Shown here one piece after another: positions 51,990-64,000 of a stretch of 64,000 bases of DNA. The translations under genes were made by a program, and so were the position numbers. Every line of letters begins with the position of its first letter. The first letter of the stretch is position 1. Source of the stretch: Rhizodiscina lignyota. Its lineage: Eukaryota > Ascomycota > Dothideomycetes > Aulographales > Rhizodiscinaceae. The stretch is from assembly GCA_010015805.1 (NCBI GenBank), contig ML978126.1, positions 372,001 to 436,000 on the forward strand, written 5' to 3'. The notes under the pieces were generated by a model. It had not been told where the DNA came from and ran no database searches. It saw only the letters and a list, made by a program, of their open reading frames with translations.

Positions 51990-53626
51990 TCAAATCACGT
52001 AGTTCTTGAATTCTCGTGTTGAAACCTTCCGCTCAAACATGATATCGAGTTCCTCAAACGTCCTGCCTTTACACTCCGGGAGGCGGAAGTAGCACCAGAT
52101 ACAGGAAAGCAGCGAAATACTTCCGTAAATCAGGCCAGTCTTGGCACCCAAGTTCGCTTCGGTGTTGTCGAGAAGATACGGCGAGGCGACATTGTAGACA
52201 ATGCCCAGTGAGGAATAAGCGATGAGGGCAATTGCAACGGTATGTCCACGCAGCCGAGTAGCTGAAGTCTCGGAGAAAATGACGTATGCAACGGGCCCGA
52301 CAGTAAGGAAGTAGATGAAGAACCAGACGAGCAGGAGTGCCGCCTCGGCGTTGACGATCGAGGGATGATTTGGCGCAATACCAATGAATCCGATGAGCAG
52401 CATCAGCAAAGTAAGCGTACACAGGCCGCCAAAGTAGAGGGTTCGACGTCCGAAGCGCGGGATGAGGAAGAAAGAGCAGCACGTTCCAACAAAGCCGAGT
52501 CCTGTCATTCCGACGTTGAGGTTGAATGCCTCGTTCGTCGGGAGACCCGCAAGCTGGAAGAAGACGACAGCGTAGAAAGGTAAGGAAAGACCACACAATA
52601 TCTGGATGGCCCAGGCCATGGCAGAGATTTCCGTGCGGCGGAGGTTAGTTCCCTTGAAGCAGTCCCAATAGCTCGTCTCCATCTTGTAGCTCTTTTCACG
52701 CATATTGGTCCGTTCGATCAGAGCCAACATCTCTTTAACGTCGACCTTCTGAGATTTCCGAATCAACCGTCGCAATGCGTTCTCAGCTTCAGTGACCTTG
52801 CCATGGCGGACTAGCCAGTAGGGCGATTCAGGAGCCCAGAAAATGAACGTGCATATTAAGACTGGCCACATCCACTGTATTGCAAAGGGGATCCTGTAAC
52901 CCCATTGGGTAGCATTGGACGCCATCCCGGCAAGCACACCAGTGGAGATAAATTGCCCAGTTGACCAGCACAGGTTGACATACGCAGTGAGAATGTCACG
53001 CAGCCTCAGTGGGCATATCTCGGACGCGTAAGTGGGCGCCAGCGAAGTAAGGATACCCCACACTACACCACACAGCATCAATCCAACCATAAGGACAGGG
53101 TTGCTTCGAGCGAAGAACGTAATGAAGGTGAATGCTGCCACCAAAACCAGGCAGATGATGAGAGTCATCTTGCGGCCGATAATTTCTGAGACAGGTCCCT
53201 GAATGAAGCCGCCCAGGACACGTCCGACAGGAGAGCACATAGCAAAAGCAGTTTGCCATGCTGCTTTGACAGTGTATTGTCCTTGGTACTCAGATCCGTA
53301 CTGGCGTTGAAAGGCGGGTAGGCCATAGAGATTGGTGATGAGGTTCGAATCTTAATTGTATTAGAGATCCATCATCAAGTCGCAGAACATTACGAACCGT
53401 AGCCGTCCATAACGATACAAACACAGAAAAGCGCCGACCAAACTACAGCCATCGAGTAGATGCTGAAAGCTTCTTTGACGGTGAGGCTGTGCTCGACATT
53501 GGTAGCTTCATTTGCGACATCCTCGAGCTTTACAATCTCAGTGTTTTTGTCATCCTCACTCTTGGCTGCAATGCTCGACTCAACCTTAGGCTCTTCAGCG
53601 ACGTTGGTGTCAATGTTGGAAGCCAT
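51990..53626 (-). CDS. MFS sugar transporter, alpha-glucoside permease type
   Basis: The model is complement(51990-53350, 53398-53626), 529 aa. The 47-nt intron joins MDGYD to SNLITNLYGLPAF. The protein has the sugar-porter signatures GRxxGG-like VGRVLGGFIQG with a following GRKMT loop, PESPYWLVRHGK between helices 6 and 7, RFGRRTLYFGG, and PECKGRTFEELD at the C-terminus. The N-terminal 60 residues are acidic and cytosolic, followed by 12 expected membrane helices. The closest subgroup I recall is the MAL/AGT alpha-glucoside:H+ symporter group, which in filamentous fungi has broad and often unknown substrates. It is divergent from the FMN enzyme and probably imports the cluster's substrate across the plasma membrane. 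Confidence 0.92.
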
Positions 53627-53931
53627 TGCAGCTCATTAAAGTAGGAAAGTGAAGATCGATAATTTCCTTATAGTCAATAGGATTCAGATATGACCCCAGA
53701 TATGCAAATCCCTTTCCCCAGGTTTCCCCCAGGCCTGACCCAAGCTTATATGTGGGGCCTTGAAGTTCAAGGGCAGGGACCATGCACGAAGATAGTTCCG
53801 GGGAAAGTTCCTGGATCGAGAACAATGCGAGCGCGATTGCTAAAGTGAAACATCGAGAGGAGTATTTATCCGTCCGTTCATAGAGCTCAATTCATATGGT
53901 CTTTGTTACTGCAAATCTCTAAAGTTTATCG
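53627..53931. promoter_or_regulatory. Shared promoter, MFS transporter and FMN enzyme
   Basis: The two genes start back to back across 305 bp, implying joint control. The region is AT/C mixed, with a CCGGGG-type patch near 53798. No clear CGG palindrome was found by eye. Confidence 0.5.
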
Positions 53932-55074
53932 ATGAGCTGTGTTGAATATCGCACTCCCATCGAGGTGAAAATGGCGTCTGAACCCGTATTATCGCTGGCG
54001 GAGCTTGAAAACATAGCGCTGGATCGAGTCAACAAGATAACTCGGGAATACTGGACGAATGGCGCTGGCGACAATTCTACAGTGCAAGAGAACAAAGTAG
54101 CATTCAACCGTTATCGAATTCGTCCTCGAGCGCTGCGCAATGTTCAGAATATCGACATGTCAACCTCTGTCCTCGGCCAAAGAGTGAGCCTCCCGATTGG
54201 AATTGCTCCATCTGGATGGCATAAGATGGCAAATCCTGTAGGCGAGGCGGGGACAGCTCGAGCCGCAAAGGCATTGGGGACAATGGTGGCGGTGTCTATG
54301 GGGACAGCAATGGGATCCACTCCGGCAGATGTATGCTCCCCAGAAGAAGTAAAATCGGCAGGCGGTAGTGCAGTCAAGTTCTTCCAGCTCTATGTATTCA
54401 GGAACCGAGAATACACGAGGCAACTGCTCCGCCGCGTGGAGAACGCAGGGTACGGAGCTGTCATGTTGACCGTTGACACGGCGCACGTTGGCAGACGCAT
54501 CTCGGAGATCAGAAATCGGCCAAATATGCCACACTTCCTTCGTACTATCAGCTTTGGATCTCAATTACAGAAGGAAAATCCAGACTCCGCTGACTTTACT
54601 ATCGATGCGAGCCTCGAATGGAACGAAATCATCCCCTGGCTACGACGCAATACCAAGATGCAGATCTGGCTCAAAGGTATCCTTTCCGGAGACGACGCTG
54701 AGCTCGCAGTCAAGCATAAGGTAGATGGGTTGATTGTGAGCAACCACGGTGGGCGGCAGCTTGACGCCTGTATCGCGAGCGTCGACGCCTTACCAGAGGT
54801 CGTAAGGGCTGTTCGAGGTGCTGTTCCCGTTCACATGGACGGTGGTATACGTAAAGGCTCTGATGTTTTCCGCGCCCTGGCGCTCGGTGCGGCCTACGTA
54901 TGGATCGGACGTCCTGCTTTGTGGGGACTGGCATATGATGGAGAACGCGGGGTAGAGCTTGTGCTGAAGATACTGCAGGAGGAATTGAAGATCTGTATGG
55001 GATTAGCAGGCTGTTCATCCACCAAGCAGATCAACGCAAGCTTCCTCGTCCAAGCTAGGGATGCCATGTTATGA
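53932..55074 (+). CDS. FMN-dependent alpha-hydroxyacid oxidase/dehydrogenase
   Basis: This is an intronless 380-aa protein. It belongs to the glycolate oxidase/lactate dehydrogenase TIM-barrel family. FMN and substrate residues are in place: PIGIAPSGWHKMA (88-100), FFQLYV (150-155), the strand VDTAHVGRR (181-189), catalytic Lys in WLKGI (246-250), catalytic His272 in SNHGGRQLD (270-278), and the phosphate loop DGGIRKGSDVFRALALGA (303-320). No cytochrome b2 domain or mitochondrial presequence is present, so it is the single-domain oxidase-like type. It should turn an (S)-2-hydroxyacid into the 2-oxoacid. No C-terminal SKL was seen. ATG at residue 14 is an alternative start. Confidence 0.93.
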   Translation: MSCVEYRTPIEVKMASEPVLSLAELENIALDRVNKITREYWTNGAGDNSTVQENKVAFNRYRIRPRALRNVQNIDMSTSVLGQRVSLPIGIAPSGWHKMANPVGEAGTARAAKALGTMVAVSMGTAMGSTPADVCSPEEVKSAGGSAVKFFQLYVFRNREYTRQLLRRVENAGYGAVMLTVDTAHVGRRISEIRNRPNMPHFLRTISFGSQLQKENPDSADFTIDASLEWNEIIPWLRRNTKMQIWLKGILSGDDAELAVKHKVDGLIVSNHGGRQLDACIASVDALPEVVRAVRGAVPVHMDGGIRKGSDVFRALALGAAYVWIGRPALWGLAYDGERGVELVLKILQEELKICMGLAGCSSTKQINASFLVQARDAML

Positions 55075-55526
55075 ACGACTCGGCCTGTTTTCTGCCGAGA
55101 CGCGGCAATATAAGAGGAAATGAGCTCCGTCTTTTCGCGTCCCACTCTTGTTGCGCCTTCATCGAGTAAATTCTTCCGATTCGATGTCTCTGTCTTCAAC
55201 GCAGAGATGATTGATGGCGAGTCAGTATCGGATATCACGTAGCTGGTGCGTGGCCTCAAAGATTAGAGTAGATCACTTGTTAACAGTGTCCGAACAGTGA
55301 AATCTGCCGAGTGGCTCATGCAAAATGTGCGTCAAGCTTGAATGTGCCGAGCATGGGTGGGGATCCCGGAGTTTTCCCAAATTAGGGGCTTCAGCCACCC
55401 AATTTTGGGTACGGCTGCCCCGAAATACGGGTGACTCGTGGAAGCCAAACACACCCTTCCAACTTCAGCGTGTCAGCGCATGAAAATGCTCATGTTTAAT
55501 ACTGAATTTGCTGTGCGTCCATACAG
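55075..55526. other. Region upstream of the visible regulator exons
   Basis: This 452-bp stretch should contain the first exon of the downstream regulator if that gene is intact, but no CxxCxxxxxxC-type coding segment was found in any frame. It does contain evenly spaced CGG half-sites at 55412-55430, listed separately. Confidence 0.45.
55412..55430. promoter_or_regulatory. Three evenly spaced CGG half-sites
   Basis: The sequence reads CGG-N5-CCG-N5-CGG. The first pair is an inverted repeat with 5-bp spacing and the second pair is everted with the same spacing, forms used by Zn2Cys6 dimers. Its place just upstream of a Zn2Cys6-type gene fits autoregulation, but CGG triplets are common by chance. 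Confidence 0.4.
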
Positions 55527-57577
55527 GCGATGCACGACAGCCATCTTGCACCAGGTGTTCACTCTTGAAGCGTGAATGCATTCGAGCTCCTTTGCATCCA
55601 TTCCGATATAGCAACAATCCCAAAGAGAGTTCTGGAGAAGATGAGTTTGAATTTGCTGAAGATCAAGTCTGGCTGACACCTCCAAGGACCGGTATGCACT
55701 TACCATTATCGTGATTAGACAGCGTCAGGAAGGACTAATCTAGGTGCTTTAGTTGAATTCGTGTATGAAGATCTCTCGGATGTCCAGGCCACATACGAGG
55801 GAACATCGAGGTTAGAGCAGCAACCGTCGAATCAAGACACCTGGAGAGAGGAATGCCCAAGACCCGACGGTCCTCAGTCTCTTGAGAACAGCCCGACCGC
55901 AGCACGTCCGAGGCCTAGCCCACCAGAGCTTACCACATTGGACCGACCTGCCCCTACATTTCCTTCAGTATGCCCATCTGGATTGACACCAGGACTCTCC
56001 ATATGGTCTCCCGAGCACAACAACGGGAGCTTACAAGCACCGAGTGGCGTCTCTAACGAAGTCACGCACAGCACCTCAGTTTCCCCTTCTGCTGCACCAC
56101 ATCGGCCATTGGCGGATGAGAATGAAGCTCTATTGCTACGCCATTTCATTGCAAAGCTCTCTCTATGGGTCAGTGGCCTTACACGAACGAGTGACTCGGT
56201 TTATGAAAGCAAAGCGCTGACTTTTAGGCAGTTCGACTACTGTGATCCGCAAAACTCATTTGCAACCTCAGTCGTGCAATGTGCAGTCACTTCCCCTCCG
56301 CTCCTGTATGCTATTCTTGCAGTTTCCGCACGGCATCTGAGCGTAACGGATGGCTACGATGGTTATGTGGCGGATCAGTACCATCGAGAGTGTCTCGCTT
56401 TGTTAATCCCTATCCTCGACGACAGAATCGCAGCTCTTGACGAGGCACTGTACGCCGCAACGGTTATCTTGCGCCTCTATGAGGAAATATCAGGTGAGTA
56501 TGAGCAACACCGAAAGATCGCTGTTTGTTTGCTCGAGCTCACAAACTGTGAAAGTTCCGCTCGTTGGGCAGGACAGCCAAAGCCACTTGATGGGTTCACA
56601 TACATTTGTGCGAGCCCACGACTATAACCAGCTGTCCGGTATCCCGCAAGCTACATTCAGAGTAGTACTTCGACAAGAGATCGTTGTCGCCTTTAGGACC
56701 CAAAGACCAGTGCAACTATTGCGCGAATACGTTCAAGTTGATCGCTCTATGGATCAAACGGATGACTGGACGTGGGTATTCCACATGCTCGTCCTCTGTG
56801 CCGAAGTGTTGAATTACTGCTATGGAGACGATCCAAAGACCCCTGAAGCCTGGCATGCGCTCGCAGAACGTGCCAATACCTGGTTTTCCTCCAAGTCGGC
56901 ATCTTTTGAGCCGATACGTCATGTCCGGGCCAGGACATCTGAGACCCAAGTGTTTCCAGAAATCTGGTTCCTCAATGATTGCCACGGTAAGTGCGCTATC
57001 TTTTCAGAATGGAACGCAAGTGAGAAATTATCCTGCTCACTGTCCTTTGTAGTTGCGGCTCATCAGTACTACCGTATATGTGAGATCTTGCTTGAAGCTC
57101 ATGATCCAAGAAAGCCGCAGTTGGGTCCAAAGAGAGCTGATGCTGTTGATGCCACTAATGTGAATGCTCTCTCATCAAAACTGTTCGGACTGAGCTGATG
57201 CCGTTATAGCGTGTCATCCGCGAGCACGTTAGAGATATATGCGGGATTGCCTTGTCAAACACTCATTGCGTACCGGCTATGTTTACGTGCTGTCTTGTGA
57301 TTGCAATATGTGAGTTTCTATCTAAAGAAAAACAAGCAAACTACAGCTCATACGTTTCGTCTTAGGCGGTGACCTCTTTGAAGACTATTCGGAGCAAAAG
57401 GCGATGATGGACATCCTGATCAAAACGGACGTGGATTTGGCATGGCCGACAGCCAGTGTTCAAACCTATCTCCGAGAGAAATGGCATTGGGATTGCGGTA
57501 TGGAACGCAGTCTCCCATTGCCATATGTCTCAAGCAAATTGACAGAAGCTGCAGTCCGAATCCCCGAACCCGTATAG
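55527..57577 (+). CDS. Zn2Cys6-type regulator, N-terminal half of zinc cluster not seen
   Basis: Visible exons are 55527-55691, 55744-56493, 56555-56986, 57053-57159, 57210-57309 and 57366-57577; all phases agree and the last ends at TAG. The first visible exon gives DARQPSCTRCSLLKREC, the second half of a Zn(II)2Cys6 cluster. The incoming phase needs a T to complete the third Cys codon, just where such genes often carry an intron, so an upstream exon is expected, yet none was found in the 450 bp before it. The fungal-specific domain is well kept: LLLRHFIAKLSLWV, SPPLLYAILAVSARHLS, AATVILRLYEEISVPLVGQDSQ, VREHVRDICGIALSN-like end. No ATG lies in the first two exons. Either a distant first exon exists or the gene lost its DNA-binding start. 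Confidence 0.62.
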
Positions 57578-57684
57578 CGTCTATACTTTCGTGCTATGAC
57601 CGACTGCTCTTACATCGCCCCATGGAAAGTCAAAGCAAACCTCGGCGAATGGCTTGAATACCGGCCGCAATCAAACGACCTCCC

Positions 57685-58802
57685 TCAAACCCCGTCGCCA
57701 ACCCTGAACTGGTGGGACCATCTCTAAATATCCACATAAGCCAGTGTGCTATACGGAGTCGGAGAAGATCATGACGCACCTGATCCCAAGGTCGAGAAGA
57801 GTCGACAAACCGCAAATCTGTTGCAAGCCGTATGACATGATCTGGGTCATGATTCACTGTGGACGCGTGAATCTGAATGAAAATCAGTCATCAACTTTGG
57901 ATCACAGAATCAGTCACATCTGAGAAAGATACCTGATACGGGCTATGCAAAACGACATCACCCGCCTCATAATTGGATACGAGCCATCGTTGGCCATGAG
58001 CGCGTCCGAATTGGGCAGGGCCGTCAGTGAGGACGCCGCTCGTCAGCATGTTCTTATTGAATGCTGACTTCGCTTCCTCATCTGATAGGCCGCTTGCTTT
58101 AGCTTTCAGCGTGAATTTCTCCTCAAAGTCCTTTCCAAGCGCATGACCTTAAGCAGATTTTAGCCGAGCTTTTCTAAACGACTACGACGTACCGTTTTCA
58201 AGATACATTAATCCTCCGCCGTTAATTTTGATATCACCCATGGGTACCCAGACCGTTACACTCGTCGGTTCTCCGTATCGAAGGAATATCTGGTCATAAT
58301 GCACGCCGATAGCCTTAGTGTCTGGGATGTTATTTCGAAGCAGGGTTCTCTCGAGCCGCCGAGTATCTGTCGACCATCCTGTGAAACGAGCCATGAAATC
58401 CAACAGCACGGGATGCTTGCAAAATTTATCTGCGTACCAATCCTGACTGTGGGCGTCAAGAGCCAAACTGACGAAATCGGCTCCTTGTTGTTCGTCCACT
58501 CTCCCCACACCGATGCCCGGGAAGAGCGTTACGTCTTTTGCAGAGTCGAAGATACCCGCTACGGGTGCAGTACCGTCTTTTAATATACCGCTCGGGGAGA
58601 GGAACTTAAAATAATCTTCGCGGACTTGCAGAACGTCCTTTCGTGGTAATAGTCCTTTCAAAAATAGGTATCCATCGTCTTGAAACCGTCTCCGGAGTTC
58701 ATTTAGTGGTAGGCTTGGATCAGACGGCTTTAGACGAGCTATTTCCGAGGGCTCCAGAGCGCCATCATTCGCGAAAAGCTGTTCCTCAATTGCATGCGGC
58801 AT
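57685..58802 (-). CDS. Phytanoyl-CoA dioxygenase (PhyH) family protein
   Basis: The model is complement(57685-57723, 57780-57872, 57933-58147, 58193-58802), 318 aa. The introns are 45, 60 and 56 nt. Splicing recovers YLENGHALGKDF, LHSPYQIHASTVNHD and the family-like end RWSHQFRVGDGV. The Fe(II) triad is visible: His and Asp in GVHYDQIF and a distal His in VVLHSPYQIH, plus the 2-oxoglutarate-binding Arg in VIRLATDLRF. The N-terminal helix-strand block RRRFQDDGYLFLKGLLP is also typical. It should hydroxylate or desaturate a small substrate using oxygen and 2-oxoglutarate. No peroxisomal targeting signal is evident. It shares a promoter region with the D-2-hydroxyacid dehydrogenase. Confidence 0.9.
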
Positions 58803-59202
58803 CTTGTTCGCTCAAATGTTCGTTAGGAGGGCCTGAATCCCGGTGATACTTTGAGAGACGAGGAAATGAGGTTATATATCATTCGCCGAATGCAATATAC
58901 ATCGAAAAGATTGCAGAAATCCATATATAGAAAATCCCCTTTTCCGTCGGAAGACCTTTGTCCAATGGCGGGCATTTATCAATGCTGGAGTACTGGAGTG
59001 TGGGGTTCACGTCAACCGTAGAAAATTCCTGTATTCAGACAGCACGGCAGAGCTTCCGAGCAAAAGATTGACGGGCTCTCTCGCATAGCAATTAATCCGA
59101 GAGACTCCATGTATGACAACATGACGTGAAATGATAAGTACCAAGCTTTTATCCAGCTCAATGTCTGGGGTAGTAATAAGGGAAAGGTCCCGCAGTGGAA
59201 AT
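58803..59202. promoter_or_regulatory. Shared promoter, PhyH enzyme and D-2-hydroxyacid dehydrogenase
   Basis: The two genes are divergent across 400 bp. The spacer contains CCGTCGG, a close everted pair of CGG half-sites, near 58945. An in-frame ATG at 59131 would shorten it, but the conserved part of the dehydrogenase begins after 59203. Confidence 0.45.
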
Positions 59203-60234
59203 ATGACGAGCAATGAAACGCTTCTAATCACCTTGCCATTCGATCCATTCGAGGAGAGCTACGCAAAGCTCAGAGAACTCCATCCAGGTCTGCAGATCCT
59301 GCATTACAAGACAAAGGACATCGATATTGTTCCACCCGAGATCTGGGCAAGTGCCACAATCCAGCTCACTCTCTATCTGTTCCCACAGCGCAAGGAGCAA
59401 GTGCCCCGGCTGAAATGGGTGCATTTGTACAGCGGCGGAATCAATCAGGCTGTCAACGCGCCTTTGCTTCAGGACAAGGACATCATTTGGACGCGCAACA
59501 GTGGAGTGCACGCACCGCAGATAGCAGAATGGGTGGTAGCAATGCTACTGGCGTACTATCGCCAGATCCCAACGCTACTGAAATGGCAAGAATCCGAGAC
59601 TTGGAGAGCGCAGGATTACTTACCACGCGGGGACCTGTATGGGAAGACAATAGGCTTTTTGGGCTACGGAGCCATTGCTCGACACACTGCTCGCATTGCT
59701 GCTGCGTGCGGCATGCACGTCATTGTGTATACACTACATGAGAAATTGACCGCGGAGGAGAGACAGAGCGATACATTTACCCCCAAGGGTACAGGCGACC
59801 CTCGCGGTGAAATTCCCGAAGAGTGGCACTCCGGTGACTTGAACGAGTTCCTGTCGCAGCAGATCGATGTGCTCGTCATATCGCTGCCCTCAACCGACAA
59901 GACCAGGGGCTCTATCGGGAAAGAGGAGTTCGCGAAGCTCAAAGGAGCATATATTATGAATATTGCGCGGGGAGATATCGTTAAGACTAACGACCTTGTT
60001 GAGGCACTCAATGATGGCACACTCCTCGGTGCTGCTCTGGACGTGACAGATCCAGAGCCACTGCCATCAGGCCATCCGCTTTGGCGCGCCAGGAACACCA
60101 TAGTCAGCCCACATGTTTCTGGAATCTCCAAAGAGTACATGCCCCGCACAATTGAAATCCTCGATGAGAACCTGAGGCGGCTGCAACAACGGAAAGAACT
60201 GATCAACCTGATTCTACGATCAGACGGGTATTGA
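59203..60234 (+). CDS. D-isomer-specific 2-hydroxyacid dehydrogenase
   Basis: This is an intronless protein of 343 aa from the ATG at 59203 (MTSNETLLITLPF); an ATG 24 codons upstream at 59131 would add a poorly conserved leader. The Rossmann motif is GFLGYGAIARHTARIAAACG. The catalytic Arg is in NIARGDIVKTNDLVEAL, the Glu in DPEPLPSGHPLW, and the His in VSPHVSG, so the Arg-Glu-His set is complete. An ISLPSTDKTRG block and a NAD(P) domain of normal size are present. The enzyme should reduce a 2-oxoacid to the (R)-2-hydroxyacid or run in reverse, in the cytosol. Substrate could be glyoxylate, hydroxypyruvate or a deoxy-keto sugar acid. Cofactor preference is not clear from sequence. Confidence 0.93.
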   Translation: MTSNETLLITLPFDPFEESYAKLRELHPGLQILHYKTKDIDIVPPEIWASATIQLTLYLFPQRKEQVPRLKWVHLYSGGINQAVNAPLLQDKDIIWTRNSGVHAPQIAEWVVAMLLAYYRQIPTLLKWQESETWRAQDYLPRGDLYGKTIGFLGYGAIARHTARIAAACGMHVIVYTLHEKLTAEERQSDTFTPKGTGDPRGEIPEEWHSGDLNEFLSQQIDVLVISLPSTDKTRGSIGKEEFAKLKGAYIMNIARGDIVKTNDLVEALNDGTLLGAALDVTDPEPLPSGHPLWRARNTIVSPHVSGISKEYMPRTIEILDENLRRLQQRKELINLILRSDGY

Positions 60235-60311
60235 TTCAGGAGTATGGAAACCAAACTCACAAGCATAGAAGTGTACATAGACTCAGTCTTATGCATTCCT
60301 TACGAGAGCAC

Positions 60312-61550
60312 CTAATCTCGGTCCCCCCAAGCTCCAAATATGTCGTGATACGGCTTCAAGAGATCGCGTGCAGGTAAAAGCTTGACATGCGGACTGAGTT
60401 CAAGTCCGAATCCAGGCTTGTCGAATTCACTGGGCTTGACAATGCCATCGGTGGGTAAGGGTTCCTTCAAGAAGAAATCTCCATGCACAGGACCAACGCT
60501 CCGTCCGTCCGGTGAATATGCCACATATTCGATAAGAGGCGAGTTGGGCTGCGACATGCAAAAGTGAACGGTGTAATGGCTATTGCCATGAGGAACAATA
60601 TCGATGTCATAAGCGGCCGCATGCACAGCTATCCTCATGAGTTCCGTCAATCCACCGCACCACATGACATCTGGTTGTAGTACGTCGAGCAGGCGTCCCT
60701 CAATCAGGTGTCGATAACCATAACGCGTGTATTCGTGCTCGCCTGTGGCCCATCTGACCTGTGGAAAGGCCTGCTTTAGTCGAACGTATCCACCAGTGTC
60801 GTCAGGACTCAACACTTCCTCCCACCACTCGATATGCAAGTCCGCACACTTGCTAATCAGCTTGATGGCATACTGGATGTTGAGGGACATGTAGCAATCC
60901 ACCATAATTGGGAACCCAGGCCCGGCTTTCTTTCGATGAGCGGTCAGAACATCATAATTCTTTTGGAGGCTGTCCGGCTCGCTAGGGCTATATGGGAGTG
61001 GTACTTTGCCTCCCCAGAAGCCTTGCTCTCGAGCAACGTCAGGATTTGGGCCCGTGCAATACGCCGTTAGATAGTCCTTGGTCTGCCCTCCGATCATCTT
61101 ATACACAGGTTCGCCTCGGATTTTGCCTAGGAGATCCCAAAGAGCCAAATCAATGACACTGACAATCATCATCGTGATGCCTCGGCGACCGTAATGCTGA
61201 CTTCCACGATACATCTGGTCCCAGATGAGGTTGGTGTCACGAGGATCAGCATCGATCAAGAATCGCTTGAAATGCTCCTCAGTGAGAAAACATCCCACAA
61301 AACCTCCATGCCCAATAGCAAATCCACGAGTCCCGTCGGACGCTTCGATTTCAACGCAGAAGTGTTTGAGCACGTCTACTCCCCAGCTATCTCGATTGTC
61401 CTTGTACTTTGGGTACTTCGACATCGGATTCGCAATCTCTTGATAGTAAAGCCAATGGCCAGGCTTCTCCTCTTCTGACTTCTTTGGATCAGGCGCGACG
61501 AGAAAAGTCCGCACTGCGGTAATCCTTGGATGCTCTTTTGATGCCGACAT
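60312..61550 (-). CDS. Enolase-superfamily dehydratase, L-rhamnonate dehydratase-like
   Basis: This is an intronless 412-aa protein from the ATG at 61550; the codon six positions upstream is GTG. The mandelate-racemase/enolase fold is complete: capping-domain block GFAIGHGGFVGCFLTEEHF, metal ligands Asp218 (MVDCYMS), Glu244 or Glu245 (EWWEE) and Glu271 (TGEHE), QPDVMWCGGLTE (292-303), and catalytic His321 (VPHGNSHY). The strings GFWGGKVP, QPDVxWCGGLT and DKPGFGLEL match the L-rhamnonate dehydratase group, which removes water from a sugar acid to give a 2-keto-3-deoxy acid. Fungal L-rhamnose pathways use such an enzyme (LRA3). The exact sugar acid is not proven. Next to an SDR on the same strand. 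Confidence 0.88.
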   Translation of the reverse strand: MSASKEHPRITAVRTFLVAPDPKKSEEEKPGHWLYYQEIANPMSKYPKYKDNRDSWGVDVLKHFCVEIEASDGTRGFAIGHGGFVGCFLTEEHFKRFLIDADPRDTNLIWDQMYRGSQHYGRRGITMMIVSVIDLALWDLLGKIRGEPVYKMIGGQTKDYLTAYCTGPNPDVAREQGFWGGKVPLPYSPSEPDSLQKNYDVLTAHRKKAGPGFPIMVDCYMSLNIQYAIKLISKCADLHIEWWEEVLSPDDTGGYVRLKQAFPQVRWATGEHEYTRYGYRHLIEGRLLDVLQPDVMWCGGLTELMRIAVHAAAYDIDIVPHGNSHYTVHFCMSQPNSPLIEYVAYSPDGRSVGPVHGDFFLKEPLPTDGIVKPSEFDKPGFGLELSPHVKLLPARDLLKPYHDIFGAWGDRD

Positions 61551-62057
61551 CGCTGTTGCCCGTAGCACGTTTCGTCTTTGAGGAGATTGATGTCGTGGTA
61601 AATTGGCCTGGTCCCTGGGTAGAGCCTCTTGCCTTCAGAGGGCGCCATATGTGAGTACATGCACGGGACGTGAAAACTCCTGGTTTCCTCCATTTGTAGG
61701 GCGAACTTTCCTGAACTCAGGGCGAAACTTCCTGAAATGAAATTGACTCGGAGATGAATACTTTCGGGCCGAGCTATTCTGTTTGTGGTGTAAAATTTCA
61801 TGTAGTAGGGGGGTTCCGACTACGGTACGATGAAACTGCCTAAGCTTTTACGAAGTAGAGTAAAACATCCCTACTACATATCTGGCATCCTCTAATTCGA
61901 CAACCTCAAAGGAGAAAATCTCATCCAAAGGTCAGTTCTGCAGCGCACCAAATCATGCCTCCAAGCTAGACAGCATTGTACCTATCGTATATGAAGCTGT
62001 GTATTTCCTGAAACAAATCGAGGCCCCTGTTCAAATTGCATAGATGCCATATCACGA
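61551..62057. promoter_or_regulatory. Promoter region of the dehydratase gene
   Basis: This 507-bp spacer lies upstream of the minus-strand dehydratase. It contains CCG-N4-CGG at 61816-61825, an everted pair of half-sites for a Zn2Cys6 factor, a weak clue only. No gene is supported. Confidence 0.4.
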
Positions 62058-63002
62058 TTACAAAATCAATCTGACCTTCAATAAATCGCCTCTTTCTATG
62101 TCCTCCTTGCGTCTCAAAATCTCTTCCATATCCCAGGTGCAGCTTAAATACCTCCCAGCAAGCCAATCTCTTCGTTCCTGCGTCAACCAGGTCACAGTAT
62201 CCCCTGCTATCTCTGGAGTATCACCCAGAGCTGCCAGTGTCTCTTTCGGCATCCCTTTTTCAGCCAGTTCCGTCAAAACCCCACCAGGATGCACAGAGTA
62301 TGCTAATAGACCTCTGTCAGCTGCTTCAACCAGCAAAAATTCAGTGAACCTGAGCGCTGCGGCTTTGCTGATGCCGTATGCGCTCGCCATGGGCCGGAGA
62401 TTATGACTTGCGACAGAGTTGATGTTAACAAGAGTCTTCAGCCCACCGTTGGTGTCCAAAAGCAGCGGTAAGAAATATTTGCTGATGAGATACACGCCTT
62501 TTAGATTCACCTCGAATGTGCGCCACCACGTATCCTCATCAGATTCCGTCACCGGCAGAGCGGGTGTCATGAAGCCTGCGTTGTTCACAATTACGTCGAG
62601 CCTGCTATTGAACTCTTCCTTGATGAGCTCAGCGGCGTTGCTCACGCTCGCAGATTTGGTAACATCAAGCTTTGTCAAGACTAGCTTCGGCGGTTCAACT
62701 GCAGCACTTCTCGCAGCTGCGGCGACATCTTGCGAAAGACTTCCGAAGTCATCGACAATGTCGCCTAGACCTATTGATGCGGCACCCGCTTTGGCGAATG
62801 ATAGCGCTATTGCACGACCGATGCCCCGAGAACCACCGGTAATAAAAACGTTGTGACCTCGATGGTTTGACTTGGAGATGAATGGATATGAGTCGGAATG
62901 GATTGTCGACGTGAAGGAAGCCCCTGGCAAGAGTAAGATATTAGACACCTTCGGAGAATTGGAATGCTCACCATTATATGGTGCAATTAGAGGGTAAGCC
63001 AT
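62058..63002 (-). CDS. Short-chain dehydrogenase/reductase of the cluster
   Basis: The model is complement(62058-62923, 62972-63002), 298 aa. The 48-nt intron is a multiple of three without a stop, so the frame stays open if it is retained; splicing gives MAYPLIAPYNGASFTSTIHSD as the start, which reads like family members. The cofactor motif is TGGSRGIGRA, then NNAG, the catalytic Ser in INSVAS, and Tyr/Lys in YGISKAA. VHPGGVLTELAEKG follows, typical of classical SDRs. It could oxidise the sugar, or act on a 2-keto-3-deoxy sugar acid at C4, as SDRs do in some bacterial deoxy-sugar pathways. That role is inferred from its place beside the dehydratase. Confidence 0.9.
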   Translation of the reverse strand: MAYPLIAPYNGEHSNSPKVSNILLLPGASFTSTIHSDSYPFISKSNHRGHNVFITGGSRGIGRAIALSFAKAGAASIGLGDIVDDFGSLSQDVAAAARSAAVEPPKLVLTKLDVTKSASVSNAAELIKEEFNSRLDVIVNNAGFMTPALPVTESDEDTWWRTFEVNLKGVYLISKYFLPLLLDTNGGLKTLVNINSVASHNLRPMASAYGISKAAALRFTEFLLVEAADRGLLAYSVHPGGVLTELAEKGMPKETLAALGDTPEIAGDTVTWLTQERRDWLAGRYLSCTWDMEEILRRKEDIERGDLLKVRLIL

Positions 63003-64000
63003 CGCAGAATCAACTATTTTGTCTCCTGAGTTCCACAGATTCCCTCCTTTTAACCACACTGTTGTCTTTATAGCTTCAGCGTAAGTGGTATTTAGTAGCT
63101 GAAGGCGTCTGATCATCAATGGACAATGAAATCGGATGATACATCCAGGATACTGATTTAAATATTCTCATCGGCTAACAGTCGTCATATTTCTCCTGCC
63201 CCAAGGCGGACTTTGTATGCTTAGCACCGTATAAGACCGACTTACAGCCTAGCTTCAATGTATAGAGTATACTTATGGCGATTTTCGGCGATTTTGAAGA
63301 CGGCCAAGCTGAAGACGGGGCGTTCGGGCGATCTTCATCAACCCAACTACCTACGGAGTAGCCCCGGCTAGACTCACGGCGGAATTTGGTGAATATGGGT
63401 CCGTTAGGTGCATAAGATAATAGAATGCAAGATTTGTCGTTCCGAAATCTTCAATATTTGGACAGCAAAGCTTTGACCAGAACTGAATTTCTCATCTAAA
63501 ACTACAGTGTAAGCTCCAATTCATATGATATCGTGACTCATAAAATATCATTCACGACCTTGAACTCCTTACTCCATGCATTTCAAGCACCGTAGCAACG
63601 TAGCATTGCCGCAATAAAAATCCCATTGCCGGATACCAGAATCTCCGCCAACGGACTGTCCATTGCCCTTCATGTCCAACTGTTTTTACTTGCTGCGTTC
63701 ACATGCAAATGCAATAACCGAGCAATATCTTTGTGATCGATGGTATCATTAAACATTTCTCAGTGCTGTGGATGATTGGGTCTCGCCTGAACCCATTCCA
63801 TAAAACGCCATAGACGGATTCCGTCTCTTAAAACTTGTTCCACGCTAATTCTATTGAATTTAATGCTCGAGAAATGGGTCGCAGTGCTCGCTTTCGATAA
63901 TTATTGATGGTAAGAGATTCGGGTTGTCTGTGCCATAACCGACGAGTAGGGCCGGCGCGGGTGCGAGGAAGGACTCGGTAAAAGATTGGGCCCCCATTCT
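63003..64000. other. Right-edge region upstream of the SDR
   Basis: This last kilobase contains the promoter of the minus-strand SDR. A short internal repeat, GGCGATTTT twice near 63277-63295, was seen. No further gene is supported before the window ends. Confidence 0.4.

Follow-up and report, generated by a model that had tools for sequence, protein, structure and literature searches.

In the 64,000-nucleotide stretch analysed here (the window; contig C6 (ML978126.1) of Rhizodiscina lignyota, positions 372001-436000, in a genome of 33.4 Mb on 29 contigs), seven adjacent genes encode a sugar porter, a regulator and five enzymes, among them a relative of L-rhamnonate dehydratase (RhamD), and the question which they raise is what compound they degrade and in which order of steps. 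A sequence-only reading had regarded them as a cluster for sugar-acid or hydroxyacid catabolism, a view which the present analysis supports, and further as a variant L-rhamnose route, for which a different substrate is now considered more likely. Our tentative answer is that the cluster breaks down not L-rhamnonate but another sugar acid, the C2 of which would be inverted by an oxidase/dehydrogenase pair prior to a RhamD-type dehydration.

All seven genes were located within window positions 51,990-63,002, at the sites given earlier, by open reading frame reading, Pfam and NCBIfam profiles (which also provided the family assignments) and spliced models. Reading frames are intact in six of the seven, the exception being the regulator, in which just half of a Zn2Cys6 cluster was found. 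The genes (MFS, major facilitator superfamily; FMN, flavin mononucleotide; D-2-HADH, D-2-hydroxyacid dehydrogenase; SDR, short-chain dehydrogenase/reductase) and the promoters common to the two predicted divergent pairs, both of which were confirmed, are:

51990..53626, minus strand (exons 53626-53398 and 53350-51990): MFS sugar-porter gene, spliced model of two exons, 529 residues; Sugar_tr 294.6 bits, NCBIfam SP family 289.4 bits (cut-off 237.8).
53627..53931: common promoter of the MFS and FMN oxidase genes, 305 bp; SYGGRG (CreA-type) words 5 versus 1.3 expected (raw counts).
53932..55074, plus strand: FMN-dependent (S)-2-hydroxyacid oxidase, single exon, 380 residues; FMN_dh 379.3 bits; 8-residue insert in the active-site loop.
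55527..57577, plus strand (exons 55527-55691, 55753-56493, 56555-56986, 57053-57159, 57210-57309 and 57366-57577): Fungal_trans_2 regulator, 31.9 bits; first exon not found.
57685..58802, minus strand: PhyH-family Fe(II)/2-oxoglutarate dioxygenase, four exons, 318 residues; PhyH 36.5 bits after splicing.
58803..59202: common promoter of the PhyH and D-2-HADH genes, 400 bp; SYGGRG words 4 versus 1.8 expected (raw counts).
59203..60234, plus strand: D-2-HADH, single exon, 343 residues; 2-Hacid_dh_C 154.7 bits.
60312..61550, minus strand: divergent RhamD paralogue (RhmD), single exon, 412 residues; MR_MLE_C 137.5 bits, MR_MLE_N 34.5 bits, NCBIfam 420.6 bits.
62058..63002, minus strand: classical SDR dehydrogenase with an N-terminal extension, 314 residues; adh_short 129.1 bits.

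The dehydratase is the gene on which the question of substrate turns. Its designation as rhamnonate-dehydratase-like holds, as it passes the NCBIfam L-rhamnonate dehydratase model NF011968 (cut-off 393), among solved structures it is closest to that of the Gibberella zeae enzyme (3fxg/2p0i; 537 bits), and an AlphaFold model built with 16 sequences (pLDDT 83.7, pTM 0.86) matches 3fxg best, with a TM-score of 0.89. The genome yielded four MR_MLE loci, one of them on contig C4, whose product is 54.9% identical to the window dehydratase over 412 columns. The C4 gene groups with Gibberella 3fxg in the tree (support 100/99), and the window dehydratase is placed outside this pair as its sister (98/96), with a branch length of 0.93 changes per column versus 0.17 and 0.18 for the pair. 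The closest LRA3 orthologue in the genome, as judged from the tree, is therefore the C4 gene, which is likely to represent its orthodox LRA3 and has a transcription-factor gene of the PF04082 (Fungal_trans) family approximately 1 kb away; by the same tree, the window dehydratase is a second, fast-evolving copy of the RhamD/LRA3 family. Horizontal transfer from bacteria was considered in view of 58% identity to a protein from a Methylobacteriaceae metagenome-assembled genome, but was set aside as unneeded since the tree sets the gene beside fungal LRA3 (98/96), a placement that the long branch leaves short of beyond doubt.

The window dehydratase was compared with 28 relatives (the C4 copy, 3fxg and 26 bacterial enzymes) across 121 near-invariant columns. 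It differs at 14 of these, and seven of the 14 departures fall in two loops: four in the loop at about residues 22-40, in which GGDYH no longer occurs, and three after His321, where SGPYSYHF has become NSHYTVHF. At these seven columns 27 or 28 of the 28 relatives agree, and neither of the RhamD loops (GGDYH; PHGSxxYSYHF) is conserved in the window enzyme. As a control, the C4 copy shows 11 departures from the 27 others, a single one of which, Gly to Ala beside the histidine, lies in those loops. We take both to be substrate loops. Residues D218, E244, E271, D294 and H321 are invariant in a 23-row alignment, and are presumed from the RhamD literature to be the three metal-binding acids (Asp, Glu, Glu) and the catalytic His-Asp pair. 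From the kept catalytic residues and the altered loops we read the window dehydratase as a working enzyme with a new substrate. A changed substrate is also preferred to a variant L-rhamnose route because an orthodox LRA3 is kept on C4 and the window copy has a long branch and altered loops. The NCBIfam name, L-rhamnonate dehydratase, should thus be treated with caution for a protein with two loops unlike those of 28 relatives.

The presence of two 2-hydroxyacid enzymes and an oxygenase in addition to the dehydratase, as predicted, was borne out by the domain matches listed above. The best solved relatives of the FMN protein are human HAO1 and spinach glycolate oxidase, at approximately 302-314 bits versus approximately 154-187 bits for most lactate oxidases, although 295 and 305 bits were obtained for two L-lactate oxidase entries of double length. 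It contains the motifs YWTNGAGD, FFQLYV and SNHGGRQLD of the (S)-2-hydroxyacid oxidase family, to which the catalytic Tyr, His and Arg presumably belong. Its 8 additional residues lie in the active-site loop that we assume to be the one holding the small-substrate gate, Trp110 of HAO1, and are absent from the seven own-genome FMN_dh paralogues and the one Caulobacter LldD that made up the alignment.

In the D-2-HADH, an NAD-binding domain is accompanied by the catalytic Arg, Glu and His, and the protein was assigned at family level to the GluC/GluD kind. Its three closest relatives in the same genome, on contigs C8, C20 and C5, are 43-49% identical. That on C20 (C20:378744-386754; L050, L051), 47% identical, is located 1.3 kb from a GH79-family gene and a few kb from a Fungal_trans regulator, an arrangement which looks like a glucuronate-type gene group; the GH79 family includes beta-glucuronidases.

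RhamD substrates have the 2R configuration, and 2S is converted into 2R when an (S)-2-hydroxyacid oxidase and then a D-2-hydroxyacid dehydrogenase act on the acid. The same S-to-R inversion occurs in the fungal D-glucuronate route, in which L-gulonate is converted via 2-keto-L-gulonate to L-idonate. An inversion prior to dehydration is our preferred mechanism because the dehydratase, of a family with 2R substrates, stands side by side with an FMN oxidase and a D-2-HADH. In this scheme, the MFS protein would import the sugar or sugar acid. An aldonic acid would be oxidised at its 2S (L) hydroxyl to the 2-keto acid by the FMN enzyme, with use of O2 and release of H2O2, the D-2-HADH would reduce the keto group from the opposite face to give the 2R (D) epimer, and the RhamD paralogue would dehydrate this epimer to a 2-keto-3-deoxy acid. 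The SDR may act either in the first step (sugar to lactone) or in oxidation of the 2-keto-3-deoxy acid, as proposed for bacterial rhmD operons that include SDR and FAH genes, while the cleavage enzymes would be encoded outside the cluster. The PhyH protein probably oxidises or O-demethylates the substrate, a role that is a guess. Candidate substrates, on stereochemical grounds, are L-xylonate (to L-lyxonate), L-gluconate (to L-mannonate), 6-deoxy-L-gluconate (to L-rhamnonate) and D-idonate (to D-gulonate). Gene presence, family assignments, conserved catalytic residues and loop changes are established here, whereas the substrates, the sequence of steps and a common regulation are hypotheses.

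Counted in support of this mechanism are the RhamD family membership, the orthodox copy elsewhere in the genome, the long sister branch, the loop departures, the analogy with fungal GluC/GluD, the GH79 neighbours, the insert in the FMN oxidase, the excess of CreA-type words and the flanking of bacterial RhamD genes by D-2-HADH genes, including that in Ketogulonicigenium. A scan for relatives of the dehydratase found them at 16 bacterial loci, and flanking genes were counted at 15 genome loci (L054-L068). At three of these (L059, L061 and L067) the RhamD-like gene has a D-2-HADH gene as its immediate neighbour on the same strand, at 7 to 35 bases, where approximately 0.06 such neighbours would be expected (from a hand count of 121 strong PF02826 matches in approximately 60.3 Mb of 15 genomes). 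At the Ketogulonicigenium rhmD locus a D-2-HADH gene lies 1.6 kb on, on the opposite strand and beyond SDR and FAH genes, with another one approximately 5 kb away on the other side. In a wider sampling, at least three of 390 genomes of one order contained a RhamD relative at E 1e-80, one of the three being the already found G008; only the best candidates per genome were scored, and the count is a lower bound.

Of note, a second and more distant MR_MLE enzyme was observed 0.8 to 7.8 kb from the RhamD relative in ten of the 16 bacterial loci (L055, L056, L057, L058, L059, L060, L061, L062, L064 and L066). Furthermore, at L061:2809-12069, from Rhodobacterales LSUCC0387, the RhamD and D-2-HADH genes come after kinase-like and partner genes, which we take to be of the four-carbon acid-sugar kinase (OtnK) type with its partners.

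Several observations speak against the proposed scheme. The RhamD substrate range and the stereochemistry on which it draws are general background, and in the dehydratase model the loop of the 20s has a pLDDT below 50, with no substrate contact seen. The L067 dehydratase is only 35% identical to that of the window, and the bacterial D-2-HADHs are distant kin of the window protein (49-61 bits). FMN_dh genes were found at none of the 16 bacterial genome loci and at one of 12 plasmid rhmD loci, in Caulobacter, where the gene is annotated lldD (13 plasmid records with RhamD genes were available, 12 of which were searched for neighbours).

The regulator belongs to the same list, as it is incomplete in this assembly. 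It had been described as of Zn2Cys6 type, which holds for its Fungal_trans_2 domain and for the C-terminal half of the zinc cluster (DARQPSCTRCSLLKREC) but not for the N-terminal half, and the full set of six cysteines was not found. When spliced, it yields an unbroken Fungal_trans_2 protein from CDARQPSC onward, the first residue being inferred, with a Pfam Zn_clus score of 11.8 versus a cut-off of 21. A first exon with the N-terminal half of the cluster was not found upstream, whether the motif was taken to be continuous or divided at the expected codon, and the first recognisable exon has no ATG in its frame. The first exon may be missing, unrecognised or lost, and a working pathway regulator should not be assumed.

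The PhyH gene also counts against the scheme, since no result fits it into any step. Its HxD...H motif and Arg are readable, and its splice pattern is supported by a 60% identical paralogue with matching splicing on contig C23. This second PhyH gene (C23:151222-152326; L046) lies, by reading, away from sugar-acid genes. None of 28 bacterial RhamD loci (16 genome, 12 plasmid) contains a PhyH gene. Relatives at 35-40% identity occur in Devosia and on Rhizobium plasmids; that in Devosia adjoins, by reading, an AraC-type gene, and a relative on an Arthrobacter plasmid (32.5%) has a gene annotated as an AraC regulator next to it. Of 385 genomes of one class, a single one, the same Devosia, gave a match at E 1e-25, and a contig scan with the two fungal PhyH proteins returned 46 pattern hits and no relative, the patterns being poor. 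Assignment of a PhyH function from bacterial neighbourhoods was rejected, as none of six plasmid PhyH loci contains a full RhamD match; at two of them (L077 and L093) a distant MR_MLE member (68 and 71 bits) is found 5-7 kb away.

Finally, promoter content is divided. SYGGRG words are in excess in both divergent promoters (raw counts, without a significance test), and were observed versus expected 0 versus 2.2 times for RhmD, 1 versus 2.6 for the SDR and 2 versus 2.0 for the regulator. No common 7- to 10-mer stands above background in the five promoters, and a shared regulatory motif was rejected, no CGG/CCG triplet pattern being present in more than two of the five. Common regulation of all seven genes is thus unproven, because no shared promoter word stands out and the CreA-type words are uneven. 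These results favour an explanation under which two or more unrelated small groups have become neighbours by chance, e.g., MFS with FMN oxidase and regulator, PhyH with D-2-HADH, and RhmD with SDR. Fungi commonly carry FMN_dh, SDR and MFS genes, the C23 PhyH paralogue is, by reading, without other cluster gene types, and no RhamD-type or FMN_dh gene lies near the D-2-HADH relatives on C8, C20 and C5, although that on C8 has an SDR neighbour. On the other hand, the layout is compact, the convergent D-2-HADH and RhmD frames being separated by approximately 78 bp, and among the four MR_MLE loci the window locus alone has an FMN_dh gene as well as a D-2-HADH gene within 8 kb, in a comparison which was made after the fact and whose neighbour gene counts are lower bounds. 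Because of this last result the seven genes are regarded as more than a chance neighbourhood, and we consider the chance explanation doubtful.

The sequence-only reading had proposed that, in place of aldol cleavage, the hydroxyacid enzymes process the 2-keto-3-deoxy acid. A redox route after dehydration exists in bacteria, where genes annotated as SDR and FAH hydrolase stand beside rhmD, and the cluster indeed lacks both a lactonase gene of the SGL type (eight matches genome-wide, none in the cluster, this being the lactonase family searched) and an LRA4-type aldolase gene (HpcH_HpaI; seven genome-wide, none in the cluster). However, Pfam identified no FAH hydrolase among the seven genes, and the FMN oxidase would be idle on an acid that already bears a 2-keto group, unless the D-2-HADH reduced it first. 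By its stereochemistry the enzyme pair would fit better before the dehydratase than after it, and a redox fate of the 2-keto-3-deoxy acid is thus less likely than a redox step prior to dehydration. Clusters of known function, moreover, also lack an aldolase gene. The A. niger L-rhamnose cluster, for one, is reported to be without lraD, the aldolase gene (PMC5674754), and the inference from missing lactonase and aldolase genes is therefore weak. Overall, we judge this proposal to be very improbable.

A further explanation is that the cluster is a satellite of orthodox L-rhamnose or L-lyxonate breakdown, in which the dehydratase paralogue would form a 2-keto-3-deoxy acid, cleavage elsewhere would provide lactaldehyde or lactate, the FMN oxidase would burn L-lactate, and the D-2-HADH and PhyH would have side roles. 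The FMN L-lactate dehydrogenase of lldD type in the Caulobacter rhmD locus would agree with this, one substrate may be served by two dehydratase genes, and rhamnose breakdown in A. nidulans leads to L-lactaldehyde and then L-lactate (PMC9699597). Against this stand the orthodox LRA3 on C4, the altered loops of the window copy, and an FMN enzyme that is nearer to HAO1 and glycolate oxidase than to most lactate oxidases and carries a loop insert. A satellite function is accordingly a questionable alternative to C2 inversion before dehydration.

The inversion scheme may also be set against known systems. With the fungal LRA/lra cluster (LRA1-4 of S. stipitis; lraA, lraB, lraC and rhaR of A. niger) the window cluster shares a RhamD-family dehydratase, an SDR, a regulator gene and a catabolic layout, yet its dehydratase is a divergent second copy, it has no SGL-type lactonase, and an FMN oxidase, a D-2-HADH and a PhyH gene are additional. 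Its incomplete Fungal_trans_2 regulator also belongs to a family other than that of the Fungal_trans gene beside the C4 LRA3. With the fungal D-glucuronate pathway (GluC/GluD, now GurA/GurB, with GluE) it has in common a D-2-HADH acting as sugar-acid reductase after C2 oxidation, with C2 inverted; A. niger GluC and GluD, of the D-2-hydroxyacid dehydrogenase family, reduce 2-keto-L-gulonate to L-idonate (PMC4870679, PMC5306355), and gluD and gluE form a divergent pair (PMC5306355). That pathway differs in that no RhamD-type dehydratase is described among its enzymes, in the parts of these papers available, and in that no gene is reported for its C2 oxidase, whereas an FMN oxidase gene lies close by in the window cluster. 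On galactarate, A. niger induces both a D-2-HADH gene and a mandelate-racemase-family gene, neither of which is among the three deletions reported, in the accessible part of the source, to disrupt galactarate breakdown (PMC5153877).

In bacterial rhmD operons, as in the window, a RhamD-type enzyme adjoins an SDR, and Ketogulonicigenium adds an opposite-strand D-2-HADH, its rhmD-SDR-FAH genes being accompanied by a 2-hydroxyacid dehydrogenase and a tripartite tricarboxylate transporter. The window cluster differs in lacking an FAH hydrolase, the bacterial D-2-HADH and SDR are only distantly similar, and PhyH and an HAO-type oxidase are not in their operons. The window SDR itself has no specific solved relative, the best match in a solved-structure search being a FabG-type reductase (80.1 bits). 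The T. reesei FUR1 L-fucose system follows a similar logic of SDR dehydrogenase and sugar-acid dehydratase (PMC12370193), but the dehydratase proposed for it is LGD1, from the galacturonate pathway, and not a RhamD paralogue, and the main text of that paper contains neither 'phytanoyl' nor 'dioxygenase' (PMC12370193). The gene set of the cluster was not found described in the literature searched, which leaves out most subscription papers.

A stronger form of the preferred scheme, which we hold to be unlikely, is that the FMN oxidase and D-2-HADH constitute a dedicated C2-inverting aldonic-acid pair feeding a re-specialised dehydratase. Fungi would then have a further, novel route for sugar acids of 2S configuration, e.g., L-xylonate, which arises when vitamin C is broken down. 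As a bolder extension, a candidate role of the PhyH protein would be to strip an O-methyl group from a methylated sugar acid, e.g., one derived from 4-O-methyl-glucuronate. If the stronger form were true, FMN oxidases of this kind would be candidates for the fungal enzyme converting L-gulonate to 2-keto-L-gulonate, the gene for which was reported as unidentified in 2019 (PMC6353982) and in April 2026 (PMC13158570). If correct, the proposed explanation of the cluster would add a fungal sugar-acid pathway and name an enzyme family for this gap in the D-glucuronate pathway, which was still reported in 2026 (PMC13158570).

Plant-cell-wall sugar genes stand close to the sugar-acid cluster, on its right flank. 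To the right of the window (C6:436068-449293; L007:6069-9900 and L008:1053-9393), genes for a thioredoxin, a GH141-like protein, whose insertion domain scores under the cut-off, an AMP-binding ligase, a thioesterase and a GH79 C-terminal-domain protein were observed. The GH79 gene lies approximately 13 kb from the cluster, and both it and the GH141-like gene are within 15 kb. These two genes, together with the T. reesei FUR1 paper, had suggested an L-fucose cluster, which was rejected as the L-fuconate dehydratase proposed there is LGD1 and no positive link was obtained. On contig C1 (C1:3647641-3651018; L004), an ENOSF1/gaaB-like dehydratase gene lies, by reading, near a DHDPS-type aldolase gene, an arrangement resembling the galacturonate pathway pair.

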